From: Cinnamomum chago
Lineage: Eukaryota; Streptophyta; Magnoliopsida; Laurales; Lauraceae
Length of the DNA stretch: 64,000 nt
Assembly: GCA_038049695.1 (NCBI GenBank)
Contig: CP142455.1
Span: forward strand, 24,217,501-24,281,500
Direction: 5' to 3'
The position numbers and the translations under genes were made by a program. Below the pieces are notes generated by a model. That model worked only from the letters and a program-made list of their open reading frames with translations, searched no databases and was not told where the DNA came from. Shown here one piece after another: positions 5,305 through 28,200 of the stretch (positions within the stretch are counted from its first letter, which is position 1; the number at the start of each line of letters is the position of its first letter).

Positions 5305-8135
5305 TGTCACGCCCTCTAAAGTGAAACCGGGATTATGCGTGAGATTAAGGCCAATTAAAACTTTTTCCAACATTAATCAAATGCAACCTGACCCCAATCA
5401 TGTCCCATCTGAATTGAAAATCGCTGTGAGGTGTAAACATTTCCTCAAATATATATAATAGTCAGCGGAAGCTTCATAAAAGCAAGTGGTATCTCAAAGA
5501 TGTATAGTTTAAGAGCAAATACTGAATATCATAATTAGAGTTCAAGTTTGAGACTGTTAACAAAATATTAGTTACAAAAAAGAAGGCCATAGTAAAACTA
5601 GGCCTAAACAAAAGTATAATAAAACCAAAAGATGAAACTAGTCAGAGAAAGTATGAAGGCTCTCATGTACGGGGTCGTTATGGCTATACATTGTCGTCCG
5701 TACTGTACTCTAGGAAGTCATCAGACTGATTTGCCTGAACTTCTTCCGTCGCCTCCTCTTCCTCGGGGTAGAAAGGCTCGGTACCTATGCACCAAGAGTA
5801 GCATCATCAACACAACAGTTGGCAAGCAAATAGATATATAAATCACCAAAGATATGCTGTACTAAAGAGAGTAAACGATAAACAAGATCATGTGAAATGC
5901 ATTGCATTTTGATCGTAAGAATACATAGCATTCGAATCATAAATAGACTACCAAAGTAGACGATCCACATATGCTAATTACCACGGGATAGTATCACTGC
6001 CCTCCCTTACTCACATTGAGTCGTGGTGGAGATATCAATAAAATGTGATCAAAACCCGGTGGTCAATAACAATAACAATCATCTCTTGGCTCATGTAGCT
6101 CGGTCCCCGTGGGCTCTGGCTCAGTCTTGCCTCGAGGCTAAAAATCCAAGTCCTCATACAGGTGGTGCCCCAGCTGTGTTGAACTTTAACAACTGAGTGG
6201 TGCCTGACACAAAGAATCTTAAAAGAACATCGGTGAGGGGCTAGGTTCTCTTGTGCAAACAAGATTCAACAACATTAGAAAAACTACTTTATTCCAATCA
6301 AATCAAACTTCAAACCAACTTCAATAGTAGTTCTCTTCAAGCCTTACAATCAAAGCCCCCTAACCTCAACACTTCAAATAAACCTCAGAACAAACAGAAC
6401 AACAAAAGGGATCCTAAGTCCATCATCTAAGTCCTCAAAGTGATATTCAAATAAAATAAAGCAAACAGAACTAAAGAATATGTTCATTACATGTAGATAA
6501 TACCAGACGGTTCAATTCAGAATAAAAAACGATAAACAATCCAATCCTAAGTAGAATGTTAATCTTGAAGCATCGTACAATCTATTCAGTCAATGAAGGG
6601 GTTAGGGTTCATGATACTCGGACGAACAATCTTCGTGCATAGATTTAAAGAATGGTATTCCGTTGACCCGTACCATTCAAGATTGAACTAGGATCCAACC
6701 GGAATAACCGTGAAGAACATCGGCCCAAGACATCCTCACACATAGTCAAATGAGTCCACAAAAAGGATAACCAAGTTTCACCTAAGTCTATTCAGAAATA
6801 GGGTGAAAATCCCTTACAGGAAGAAATCCCACTTGTCTCGGTCGACCTGGTCATTAGCCGGTCGACCGCGTACACAGTGAACCCGGTCGACCTGAGAAGG
6901 CCAGGTCGACCTCTCTCATGTATGCTCGGTCGACCAAGGGCTAGGCCACTCAACCGACAGTTGTAAGTGAAAATGGGCAACAGTGTTTTGGTCAGGTTCT
7001 AAAGAACCAGACCCTGTGTGGCCGGTCGACCGAGGTACCTGGCCGGTCGACTGCGTGGATTACAGAAACAGAGCCCAGGTTTTGTTTCTGCAGTGAAATG
7101 AGTCATTCATTCCACTCCTTCTCTAAACCTGATTAGCAGTCCATACAATGATAAAAACAACCTAATTACAATTCACAATTCTATTTAATCAAGTTATGAA
7201 TATCCAAATTCATTCCATTAGGCTAATAAACCTAATTATCATGTTTTCAAACCTCTAAAGTATCAAATGAGTAAAGAACATCTAAATCATGAGTTTTTCA
7301 TACAAATCAAGGAAGACAAACCTATCAAGGATAAATATAAATATTTACTTGCCTTAGATGAGGAGCTTGACTAAAACCAAGAATTTTGAGGAAAAAGACT
7401 CTTTGAAGCTCCAAGAAGAGAAAGCAACTCTCAAAACCCAAATCACTCATACAAATGCATGCCAAGGGTTGAGGTGAGTCTCCCTAGTACATTTCTAACT
7501 AAAAAGGAAGAAGAAGAGGTAGTCTACAAGCTTTAGGAGCTTACATTTGAATGGGTTGTGGACGAAAAGCTTAAAAAAGTAGATGGTTTGGATCTTGGAA
7601 GCTTGAGGAAGAAGATGGGAGGCTTTGTCGTCGACGCCGGAGCTCCGGTGACCGTTGGCAGTGAGGAGGCAGTGAGAGGAAGAGAAAGAGAGATGAGAGA
7701 GAGAGGTTGTTATTGTTGTTATTGTGTTGAGTGAGAGAAGAGGGAATGAGTTTTAATCTAATAAAAGGGATGGGCTTTGTAAACAGGCCATGGGCCTTGG
7801 GTTGGGTTTTGGGTTGGGTCCAGGGTCCACAATTGATGATTTTCGGGCCTCTTCGACGCGTCGAATTGAAACGCGACAGAAGACTAATATTCGTAAAATA
7901 TCGAGACCTACCCGATGCACCCAAACTCACAAAAACTCATAATCTCATAAGAATTCCTGAAAACTTACCCAAATTGCAATCACCTCCCTATTCTACCCAA
8001 ACGCACTCCGAATCGAGCGAGACTTCACACATGAGATTCAAACATCAAACCCGACTCGCTAAGACTTTAACACACTTATTAACTAATCATGCAATTAATT
8101 ATAATTAATAGAAGATTAAAGGACGGGATGTTACA
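5305..8135 (+). mobile_element. Solo LTR inserted in the NBS-LRR gene (long Ty3/gypsy-type LTR)
   Basis: Starts TGTCACGCCC and ends GGGATGTTACA (TG...CA ends). It is flanked by a 5-bp target duplication CTATG (5300-5304 and 8136-8140). Removing it rejoins the NB-ARC frame on either side. No gag or pol and no internal pair of LTRs were seen, so it looks like a solo LTR of 2831 bp. It shares landmarks with the LTRs at 10439, 40419 (reverse) and 60140: TGT(A/C)ACGCC-like start, GCGGAAG about 160 bp in, CACCAAGAGTAG. Long LTRs with this start suggest Del/Tekay-type chromoviruses; that assignment is inference. It carries a cluster of GGTCGACC palindromes at ~6838-7050. Confidence 0.8.
6838..7052. 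repeat. Cluster of GGTCGACC palindromes inside the LTR
   Basis: Six perfect copies of the 8-bp self-complementary motif GGTCGACC plus one near copy (GGTCGACT) lie within ~215 bp, irregularly spaced at 20-90 bp. The DNA between copies is unrelated. Equivalent clusters at a similar place in related LTRs use the same or a different palindrome (38228-38660 and 11780-11930). Confidence 0.85.
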
Positions 8136-16380: not shown

Positions 16381-16585
16381 CACTACACCAAAAATCGGAA
16401 ATTGGAACGGAAAAGCGTTCCTAATCCTTCCGTTCCTAATCCGTTAAAGTGTTCCAATTTCCGTTCCAATTTGGATTAGGAACGGTTGGTACCAAATTGG
16501 AACGGAAATTGGAACACTTTAACGGATTAGGAACGGAAGGATTAGGAACGCTTTTCCGTTCCAATTTCCGATTTTTGGTGTAGTG
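16381..16585. mobile_element. Nested CACTA-type hairpin MITE, 205 bp
   Basis: Begins CACTACACCAAAAATCGG and ends with its exact complement. The arms are about 92 bp each, essentially perfect, around a ~21-bp loop (GGATTAGGAACGGTTGG...). A 3-bp target duplication ACA flanks it (16378-16380 and 16586-16588). It is inserted in the interior of the larger CACTA element. The near-identity of the arms points to recent origin or gene conversion. Confidence 0.92.
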
Positions 16586-24681: not shown

Positions 24682-24918
24682 TTGGTAATGTAATTCTCTA
24701 TGGATAATAAGAAATTTGTAAAAATCATCCAAACAATCAATAAAAACCCTAAGACCGTTGATGTACTTGATTACGATTATGTGAAAATGGTGATTTTGAT
24801 AAACATGGTCACGTATTGCATGTGTACAATTTACTTATATAGCATTTATATATGTAAATCTCATTTTCCAATAATGTGTGTGAAAGGCAAACAACCCCTA
24901 ACCACAGCTTTCCAAATT

Positions 24919-24980
24919 CAGAGATGCTACCTGTCCCGACTGGGAGCCCGGGCTCCCAGTCGGGACAAGAAGACTTTTCC
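24919..24980. mobile_element. 62-bp palindromic micro-element with 9-bp target duplication
   Basis: TTCCAAATT at 24910-24918 is repeated at 24981-24989. Between them lie 62 bp made of a 13-bp flank (CAGAGATGCTACC), a 36-bp perfect palindrome centred on GGGAGCCCGGGCTCCC, and another 13-bp flank (AGAAGACTTTTCC). Copy B lacks it. The outer ends are not inverted repeats of each other. Flanks and core resemble the larger insertion at 25919-26163. Confidence 0.75.
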
Positions 24981-25277
24981 TTCCAAATTAATACCACATG
25001 CAGAACATCATGTTGTTATATTTTATTTTTATAGCTGCGCAATCCAATGGCAAGAATTGCATAATATCAACAGTCTTCATCCTCAAACTTATATGAATAT
25101 AATAGAGAGACTTAGAGACCCACATACACACAAGTAGCCATTTCTTTTAAAAATCATCCTAACGCGCCAAAAATGGTCCCACACTCCCAACTATAACGAC
25201 TTGAAAAAAATTTGCCGGGAGGCCTTCAACACACTTTAAATCAAACACCATCTGCAAAAACCCATCCAGTCATCTCC

Positions 25278-28200
25278 ATGGATCCAAAGATACTGGAAAT
25301 AGCAAGATCCGGCAAGGTCGATGAGCTCAATCGAATCAAGAACCAAAACCCCAAAACCCTCACAGCATCAACCCCAAAAGGCAACACAGCCCTTCACATC
25401 GCCTCCCGGCTTGGACGCACCAAATTCGCTGCAACCATCAGCGACCTCTGCCCATCTCTTCTGCTGGTGCAGAACTCCAGAGTCGACACTGCACTCCATG
25501 TTGCAGCAAGAGCCGGGCATTCGGCTCTGGTTGCGAAGCTGATCGAGAAAGCCGAGAGGGCGAATGTGAGGGAAGAGATGATGCAGAAGAAGAACAGGGA
25601 TGGGAACACACCACTGCACGAGGGTGCGAGGAACCGAGATGAGAGAGTTGTTGAGCAGCTGCTGATGCGAGAAGAGGGTGTGGAGATGGCTTTCGTTCTC
25701 AACAAGGTTGGTGCGTCTGCACTCTATCTGGCTGGAGAAGGAGGGTGTGTTGCGAGCGTTGAACGGATCGTTGGAAGTGCGGAGAGAGTGATGGAGAGGC
25801 CTCGTGCGGCTGCTTTTGCAGGGCCAAACAAACGCACGGCACTGCACGCGGCTGTTTTTCGGGGAGATTGTGGTAAGTTTTCTTGGACTGTGGTGATGTG
25901 GAGGACACTTTGGTAAAAGAAAACCAAAAGTCTACATGGCCCGATTTTGGGGACCGGCTGTTGGCCCGGTCCCCAAGGGAGCCATTGGATCCTAGGACAG
26001 CCTGGGATCCAATGGCTCCCTTGGGGACCGGGCCAACAGCCGGTCCCCAAAATCGGGCCATGTAGCATGTCCCAAAAGAAAAAGTCTACCCACCCCGGCC
26101 GAGACCCCGACTGGGAGCCCGGGCTCCCAGTCGGGGTCTGGGCCGGGGTGGGTAGCACCGCTGTTGGTAAAATCAGACTACCGAATATTATTGGTTAGAT
26201 ATGAACTGATTCACCTCCAAGGGATAGCCCAGTTGGCCTAAGACCATGGTCTGCACCCGGAGGTTGTAGTTTCGAAATTGCACTGGGGCTATAAGAGAGT
26301 TTACCCGGCTTCCCTCTGGGCCAAGAGGGATTTGTCCAGCCCAAATGGTTAAGAACCCTTTGATAGAGCAAAAAAAAAAAAAAAAAAAAAGTGAACTGAT
26401 CCTTGGTCCATTAACCAAAGTCAACCAACATGCAAGGGTGGAACCCAACCAATCCCCACAAGAGAAGGAAAAAAAGATCTAATTATATATTGTAAGTCCA
26501 GTTATATTTTTAGCCATTGATAAAGTGATCCCCTTGGGAGGATCCGTTATTAGAGTCAGGATCTCATATGGGCTCTATCTCAAAAGTGGTATTATCACTA
26601 TAAAATAAAAAGATGGAGGGACAATAATTTTGAGACTTTTAGATTTTGAAGGTGGGCCTATTCCGGCAGATGTTTAGCTACCCTAGTACTTATAAGAAGA
26701 GAACAAATTAAAACGGAAGGGCTTGTGAGGATGACAACATGGCAAGTTTCAAAAATGTTTCATACATACATAAGCATTAATAACATTTTATTTCTCAAGA
26801 AAAACTCAATGGTTTGATTTCTCAGTGCAATTGTAATGACTGTTCTAGTTTACATTTTACTTCTTTTCTAGTAATAAAATATTATGGCATTCTAGTTTTC
26901 AAATAGTTACAAATTTAATGTGAATTCTTTTAATTTATAGGTATAAAGGGGTTTAAGATGTAGATCATCACATCATCGTGAGTGCCTTAATTATCTCATC
27001 TATTTGGGTTTCCAAATATAATGCGAATTCTTTTATTTTAGGAAAAATTTCAAATAAGTCCTTATGTTTTTGCCTAATTTCAAGAAAGGAAACAAGTTTT
27101 AAAAGTTTTCAAACTAATTTCAAAGTTTTCCAGTAAGTTTTCAATTAAGGACATCCGGCCATTTAAAGGTATTTCCTGGCGAATTTTTCCCTCAATATTT
27201 TAAAAATACCCAAATTACTCTTCCTTGAAAGCCATGACATAGTTTCGGGAGCCACTACATGCAACCAATCACTGTGAGGAACACTGGTTATCCTTGATCA
27301 CCGTGAGGAAGTCAGTAAAGGAAATGAGCAGAATATAGAGGAAGTAAATGAAAGTTTTATTTCAACGAAAGGTAATTTGGTACTTTAAAAAAAATAGAAA
27401 AAAGGTTGCCAAAAAATAGGTTTAAATGGACGGATGTCCTTAATTAAAAACTTTCTAGAAAACTTAGAGACTAATTTGAGAAGTTCTGAAACTTGTGTCC
27501 TTTACATAAATAAGGGAGAAACTTATGGCCTTTTTTGAGGTTTTCCCTTTATTTTATCGGTGTAAGGGGTTTTCGATGTAAATCATTGTAAGTTCTTTAT
27601 CCCATCTATTTAAGGTCCACTTTATAAGTTTTTTTCCAACCAAGTATATTGGTAGTAATTTTTTAACTAACTATCTCTCTTTTCTCACTACATTATTTAA
27701 GGATCTTGTTAGTCTTCTTTGTTTATTATTTTTTTGATATGTAACTCTTCAATACAGCTTAAAAAGACTAATATATGACCAAACTATTTCAAATAGATAT
27801 ATGAGGCTCGTTCATTTCCATATAATACATTGGAATTGAATACATAGAAATTCATGGTACAATGAACTCCAAATGATTGTTGAAGAGGTGAAGGTTGAAG
27901 CATATGAGGTAGCAATATAAATGGGACCTTAACTTTTGTAGGATTTGCCATGGCTGGGTATTCATCTCCCAACTTTTATTGATTCAACTTTCATTAAAGA
28001 AGGGATTATTTAATGTTCATTTTTGGATATTCACTTTCTTCATTTCTTAACCACATATGAAAATAAAAAAAGTCTTAGGGCTTTTTTCTTTACTAGAATT
28101 CCGGACAGAAATTCTAAATGTTAGTGTTTTTGGGACATAATGTTCCCTAGCATTTGCAAATCCACGATTTCGTTCTTGGCATTCAGAAATTCCAACCATA

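Follow-up and report, generated by a model that had tools for sequence, protein, structure and literature searches.

The window analysed here is a 64,000-nucleotide stretch of the Cinnamomum chago genome (G000:C5:24217501-24281500; 1.06 Gb in 14 contigs), and within it two strongly palindromic insertions lie beside the first coding exon of an ankyrin-repeat gene. The frame at 25278-25871 encodes ankyrin repeats (Pfam PF00023, E = 4e-18; PF12796, E = 5.5e-17), and the two insertions, which we call unit 1 and unit 2, are situated in intron 1, about 40 nt past the splice donor (Table 1). A first-pass annotation had placed them in the first intron of an intact ankyrin gene; our evidence covers the 5' side of that gene, where an ankyrin exon followed by GTAAGT agrees with the placement. 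A third insertion with the same architecture, that at 24919, precedes the ATG at 25278 by roughly 300 bp.

Table 1. Palindromic elements, their target-site duplications and the adjoining exon, in window coordinates.
Feature	Position	Strand	Remarks
Left target-site duplication of 62-bp element	24910..24918		TTCCAAATT
62-bp palindromic element	24919..24980	-	B end CAGAGATG at left, A end GGAAAAGT at right
Right target-site duplication of 62-bp element	24981..24989		TTCCAAATT; exact
First coding exon of ankyrin-repeat gene	25278..25872	+	Read from sequence; donor GTAAGT at 25873
Left target-site duplication of unit 2	25910..25918		TTGGTAAAA; exact match to 26164-26172
Left target-site duplication of unit 1	25915..25923		AAAAGAAAA; exact match to 26074-26082
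Unit 1, 150-bp palindromic element	25924..26073	+	A end CCAAAAGT, B end CATGTCCC; second to insert
Right target-site duplication of unit 1	26074..26082		AAAAGAAAA
Unit 2, 86-bp palindromic element	26078..26163	+	A end GAAAAAGT, B end CACCGCTG; first to insert
Right target-site duplication of unit 2	26164..26172		TTGGTAAAA

Direct reading of the 25919-26163 region confirmed two palindromes with AAAGTCTAC...GTAGCA edges and, as the annotation had described, unlike cores. The palindrome of unit 1 does differ from that of unit 2, and it measures 134 bp (25932-26065) and not the approximately 124 bp originally given, with 65-bp arms that are 98% complementary around a 4-nt loop; that of unit 2 is 70 bp (26086-26155), consisting of 35-bp arms, 97% complementary, with 0 nt between them. 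In both units the palindromy is well above the chance level. The core of unit 2 had been said to recur in the element at 24919, and the two are indeed identical over 30 bp (CCCGACTGGGAGCCCGGGCTCCCAGTCGGG). The A end of unit 2, taken from its intact copy, is GAAAAAGTCTACCCACC; it is common to loci L033, L035, L045, L053 and L057, which also share the first stem bases.

What had to be revised was the reading of a single duplication enclosing both units. The TTGGTAAAA duplication belongs to unit 2, and unit 1 has its own, AAAAGAAAA, made up of the last four bases of the left duplication of unit 2 together with the first five bases of unit 2 itself. Since the duplication of unit 1 spans the left junction of unit 2, unit 1 was inserted second, at the left edge of unit 2. 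The units are a nested pair resulting from two separate insertions, each with its own exact 9-bp duplication. That they arrived together as one composite element with the single duplication TTGGTAAAA is hardly credible, for although TTGGTAAAA does bracket the pair and adjacent pairs also occur at L021, L027 and L028, unit 1 is flanked within the window by an exact 9-bp duplication of its own, its relatives have theirs at other sites (L002, L004, L012 and others), and in the L028 pair, where the partner belongs to the 62-bp kind, each of the two members has its own duplication. The composite tandem element was rejected on the separate duplications of units 1 and 2. By eye, in the four adjacent pairs (window 25910-26172; L028, 230-500; L021, 230-520; L027, 130-490) the later insertion lies in or overlaps a junction of the earlier element, either its duplication or its outer end, as if element edges were preferred targets.

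The three elements in the window have in common a 9-bp duplication, an 8-nt end A (SNRAAAGT), an 8-nt end B (SRGNNRTG) that is not an inverse copy of A, and a near-perfect palindrome. The 9-bp duplications show that the elements were integrated by a DNA transposase making staggered cuts 9 bp apart. Further loci were gathered by DNA similarity and passed to a script that required recognizable ends and a 9-bp duplication mismatched at no more than one position, which yielded 52 distinct elements of 62-170 bp, 40 of them with an exact duplication; this set was chosen for its duplications and so gives no duplication rate. Among the 48 best elements one end is near SNRAAAGTCTWC and the other near SRGNNRTGCTAC. 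The palindrome starts at CTAC, and in three length classes the outer 8 nt are paired in 26-38% of cells, compared with 88-98% in the stems.

Genome-wide, the pattern AAAGTCTACNTGG-(85 to 115)-CCANGTAGCA, which represents one spacing class, has 735 matches, and its reversed control has 0. The places listed for this pattern are all on contig C1, and the first 61 of them were fetched as 60 loci holding 61 elements, 54 of which are 143 bp long. Fifty of the 61 have an exact 9-bp duplication, 5 have one mismatch and 6 have more, the last group including one duplication shifted by one base (L165) and two elements that lie in a tandem duplication (L162). We also fetched 20 further A ends that are absent from the listed pattern places; 12 of these (L091, L092, L093, L098, L099, L101, L102, L104, L105, L106, L109 and L110) have a B-like end and, after it, the repeated 9 bp with no more than one base different, and the remaining 8 are deleted, nested or not clearly readable.

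Short, non-coding and present in many copies, and bounded by a target-site duplication of fixed length, the elements have the properties of miniature inverted-repeat transposable elements (MITEs), of which 207 plant genomes have been surveyed according to the available part of PMC12550479, save that their inverted repeats begin 8 nt inside instead of reaching the ends. MITE tools that rely on terminal inverted repeats would be expected to place the borders 8 nt in error and to miss the duplications.

Among the elements examined, ends A and B occur as a pair. Within loci L001-L088, all 43 elements with an exact duplication and a stem are of the A-B type, with 0 A-A and 0 B-B; a control in which the duplication was sought at five displaced positions, with no stem filter, gave 7 matches in all. 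Across the genome the 735 A-B matches of the one spacing pattern compare with 2 A-A elements (each listed on both strands), the A-A pattern being three bases stricter than the A-B pattern. Both A-A copies (L182 and L183) were fetched, and in each the palindrome is matched to the very ends and there is no 9-bp duplication; they are perhaps products of rearrangement, fold-back or ectopic recombination and not insertions. The A+B rule suggests that the two ends are read separately.

The first-pass annotation had allowed that copies throughout the genome might all prove to share one core. The cores are not all one sequence, and the same ends surround at least three kinds of body. A family defined by its flanks and by its palindromic form, as had been proposed, is thus upheld as regards the several bodies, and the "shared short ends" of that proposal give way to unlike A and B ends in each element. 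The third kind of body is AT-rich (ACAAACTTTTTGGCCAGAATTTTGGCC...), unlike units 1 and 2, and is found in all the listed pattern places except C1:112048221; the combination of an A end with the AT-rich loop after it occurs 678 times genome-wide. Alignment of the arms without the common base links members inside the GGGGACC class, and unit 2 with the 62-bp class. Between the AT-rich class and the others, the best pair among 21 comparisons was equalled by 5 of 500 shuffles, and the scores of the AT-rich class are borderline (5 and 15 of 500 shuffles as good). On these alignments the AT-rich and other bodies have no clear similarity, and they may yet share a remote ancestor. Three loci (L048, L053 and L057) appear by eye to mix arm pieces of two classes, and L021, L027 and L028 differ from L018 by a short inner arm inversion (CCGATTTTGG versus CCGAAAATGG) that is present in both arms of a copy.

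The 54 AT-rich copies of 143 bp, in which 98% of stem cells are paired, allowed changes in the two arms to be compared, and each departure from the majority base was assigned to its stem pair. Distinct changes present in at least two copies comprise 18 symmetric and 6 one-sided; of those confined to single copies, 25 are one-sided and 0 symmetric (Fisher p = 1.2e-8; p = 5e-7 if adjacent symmetric columns are merged, which leaves 13 versus 6 among the shared changes). Eleven of the 18 symmetric sites are transversions, some of the columns being part of one symmetric T-run shift. When identical rows were collapsed to 34, the private cells became 2 symmetric versus 20 one-sided, the two symmetric cells appearing because one pair of changes then falls in a single row. 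Shared changes being mostly symmetric and private ones one-sided, the subfamilies therefore differ at both arms, and recent single-copy damage is one-sided. It is chiefly in the AT-rich class that such concerted change stands out; in the other sets the effect is weaker, with 22 symmetric versus 49 one-sided sites in the 150-bp set (8 copies) and 1 versus 17 in the 62-bp set (12 copies). As a separate observation, L112 and L113 (G000:C1:2875940-2876150 and 2990400-2990590) have the same 9-bp flank, AAAAAACAA, and differ in the inner palindrome; they derive perhaps from a segmental duplication of which one copy was altered in place.

The loop is also found in both orientations. With end A as the reference, 433 occurrences of the AT-rich loop genome-wide read CTA and 245 read TAG, a ratio that departs from 1:1 (p = 5e-13); the two triplets are reverse complements and three substitutions apart. 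The 54 fetched copies have TAG in 26 cases, CTA in 24, TAA in 2, and CAG and CCA in 1 each, and a group of 17 copies that are identical outside the loop holds TAG 10 times, CTA 5 times, and TAA and CAG once each. Three of the smaller identical groups hold both loop states and three hold one. In a second, GC-rich family the loop is ACAG in 5 copies and CTGT in 7, and the same visible arm occurs with both states. L002, L003, L005, L106 and L162 contain additional half arms, in some cases together with flanking fragments, as would be expected if DNA synthesis had slipped or switched at a hairpin.

The elements are probably best explained as non-autonomous fold-back mini-transposons of the Mutator type, one of them nested, whose arms are corrected and whose loops are flipped by template switching. 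A transposase acting in trans would recognize the unlike ends A (SNRAAAGT-CTWC) and B (SRGNNRTG-CTAC), one of each being required, and the region between them is a palindrome of variable sequence, probably kept by the occasional copying of one arm from the other when a polymerase switches template at the hairpin. Such copying would turn one-sided mutations symmetric and invert the loop, and its effect would diminish toward the stem base, the outer 8 nt remaining unlike. Template switching would in this way jointly explain the symmetric change, the loop inversion and the half-arm duplications. The available parts of the literature on quasi-palindromes describe template switching between the arms of inverted repeats that homogenizes the arms and inverts the spacer (PMC8604942), and that fixes the stems of RNA genes (PMC8794818). 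Against this explanation stand the weak concerted change in the 62-bp and 150-bp sets, the 2 symmetric private cells that appear on collapsing identical rows, the skewed loop ratio, the 4 of 54 fetched copies that have other loops, the unlike outer 8 nt, and the failure to find a transposase gene bearing both ends in the few loci read.

It is possible, if somewhat doubtful, that correction and loop flipping can happen whenever a resident copy is replicated, through a cruciform or a stalled fork, with no connection to transposition. As they are described in the accessible parts of the same papers (PMC8604942, PMC8794818), the template-switch mutations are a replication error of non-mobile inverted repeats; arm homogenization and spacer inversion are seen there as here, and are reported for resident inverted repeats and RNA genes and not for a mobile family. 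The tandem half-arm products at single sites (L162, L002) also show local events. The private changes (0 symmetric, 25 one-sided, in 54 copies) indicate that resident correction is rare relative to mutation over the short age of the copies, and flipped loops are common in copies not old enough to differ elsewhere, two points that tell against correction in place and leave room for correction acting slowly over long periods. That no private change is symmetric thus speaks for correction during transposition, or for rare correction spread over a long time.

As to the transposase, ends in Mutator-like elements (MULEs) are usually inverted copies of each other, and the outer 8 nt here are not. A duplication of 9 bp is a common length within the Mutator range of 8-11 bp, and some MULEs lack inverted ends, as stated in the available part of PMC6446971; it is the length of the duplication that suggests Mutator membership. 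Another DNA transposase that makes 9-bp duplications and accepts unlike ends would accommodate the fact that A and B are not inverted copies, and no MULE with A and B ends was present in the few loci read; given, however, the common occurrence of 9-bp duplications among Mutator elements and the existence of MULEs lacking inverted ends (PMC6446971, available part), we consider it unlikely that such an enzyme mobilizes the elements.

A search of the genome for PF10551 gave at least 150 matches, and the two of these loci that were read (L089 and L090) contain no A+B pair. L089 has one A-like motif near position 325, with no partner end or duplication within 7 kb. In L090, inverted repeats of about 189 bp (7260-8001) follow, on the downstream side, an open frame of 754 aa that matches PF10551. 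Of 1038 A ends, 31 (reversed control, 9) have an interior of an unfamiliar kind, and 11 such loci were fetched and read; they look mostly like truncations or small deletions, with no coding element bearing both ends among them. Four of them, L177, L179, L180 and L181, represent palindromic elements or forms with deletions, the first 130 nt are nearly the same in L171 and L172, L173, L174, L176 and L178 look like truncated copies, and L175 fits chance. No parent MULE sharing arms with the elements was found among the few loci read, and at least three body classes are present.

Fold-back MULEs of the FARE/Jittery type are much larger than the elements described here. As mentioned in the available part of PMC4486113, they too have long palindromic or inverted repeats and are classed with MULEs. 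From the same source, MuTAnT of Medicago truncatula is, like our elements, a short non-autonomous fold-back element with a 9-nt duplication in a plant nuclear genome; it is 292 bp long with 144-bp arms, is predicted to form a hairpin and is Mutator-like (PMC4486113). MuTAnT differs in having long terminal inverted repeats, TA-microsatellite targets and a putative autonomous partner (PMC4486113, available part), whereas in the elements here the outer 8 nt differ, the bodies vary and no partner was found in the loci read. Unlike ends combined with a 9-bp duplication are features of non-TIR MULEs of the VANDAL type, and both are found here; in the accessible text of PMC6446971 a 9-bp duplication is ascribed to part of that clade and some members lack inverted ends, but VANDALs are apparently autonomous and coding, and the present elements are palindromes of 62-170 bp. 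By their descriptions, the double-hairpin and GC-rich palindromic elements of fungal and other mitochondria are short mobile hairpins as well, but of organelle genomes. The elements here resemble a fold-back MULE-type MITE such as MuTAnT, minus the inverted repeats at the very ends. A full-text literature search, with most subscription papers beyond its reach, brought up no description of this architecture among the titles and abstract openings listed.

Selection for a good stem, whether for mobilization or for escape from silencing, would favour compensating mutations as in a structural RNA, and the amplified AT-rich copies do retain long stems, with the high degree of pairing noted above for the 54 copies. 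We regard this as quite improbable as the origin of the symmetric changes, since transversions, for which no G-U-like intermediate is possible, account for 11 of the 18 symmetric sites (some columns forming one T-run shift), and since selection on pairing leaves the inversion of the loop among otherwise identical copies unexplained.

A further conceivable reading, to which we attach little probability, is that the elements move, or are copied in transit, as single strands folded into a hairpin whose ends A and B form an unpaired fork of 8 nt. Stem mismatches in this hairpin would be repaired symmetrically, and it could be rejoined in either orientation. Were this so, each round of transposition would perfect the palindrome and could flip the loop, the forked ends would stay unlike because the transposase reads the fork, and new palindromes could be captured under the same ends.

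Whichever agent is at work, long perfect palindromes are usually unstable, and hundreds of copies here keep them despite that instability. The set of elements, explained above as fold-back Mutator-type mini-transposons with template-switched arms, amounts to a natural replicated experiment on the upkeep of mobile palindromes, with symmetric change and loop inversion as its readouts, and it also informs how a transposase can demand two unlike ends. Hairpins of this kind inside genes are candidate sources of small RNAs.

In the ankyrin gene, RNA of 25911-26172 has a computed folding energy of -237.6 kcal/mol (z = -22.5; 0 of 200 shuffles as good), and on this prediction the intron RNA would form two strong hairpins; effects of these on splicing or on small RNAs are conjecture. 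The window has no Rfam match at gathering scores, and a known RNA family was thus not recognized in it. Adjoining the hairpins, at 26214-26390, a stretch identified by eye (TAGCCCAGTTGGCC..., GGTTGTAGTTTCGAA and an A-tail), with similar flanks TGAACTGATTC and TGAACTGATCC, looks like what we take, from its box motifs, to be a tRNA-derived SINE. Elsewhere in the window, at 16381-16585, lies a palindrome with 94-bp arms and a 17-nt loop that begins CACTACACCAAAAATCGG, an end motif from which we presume that it is possibly a palindromic element of the CACTA type.
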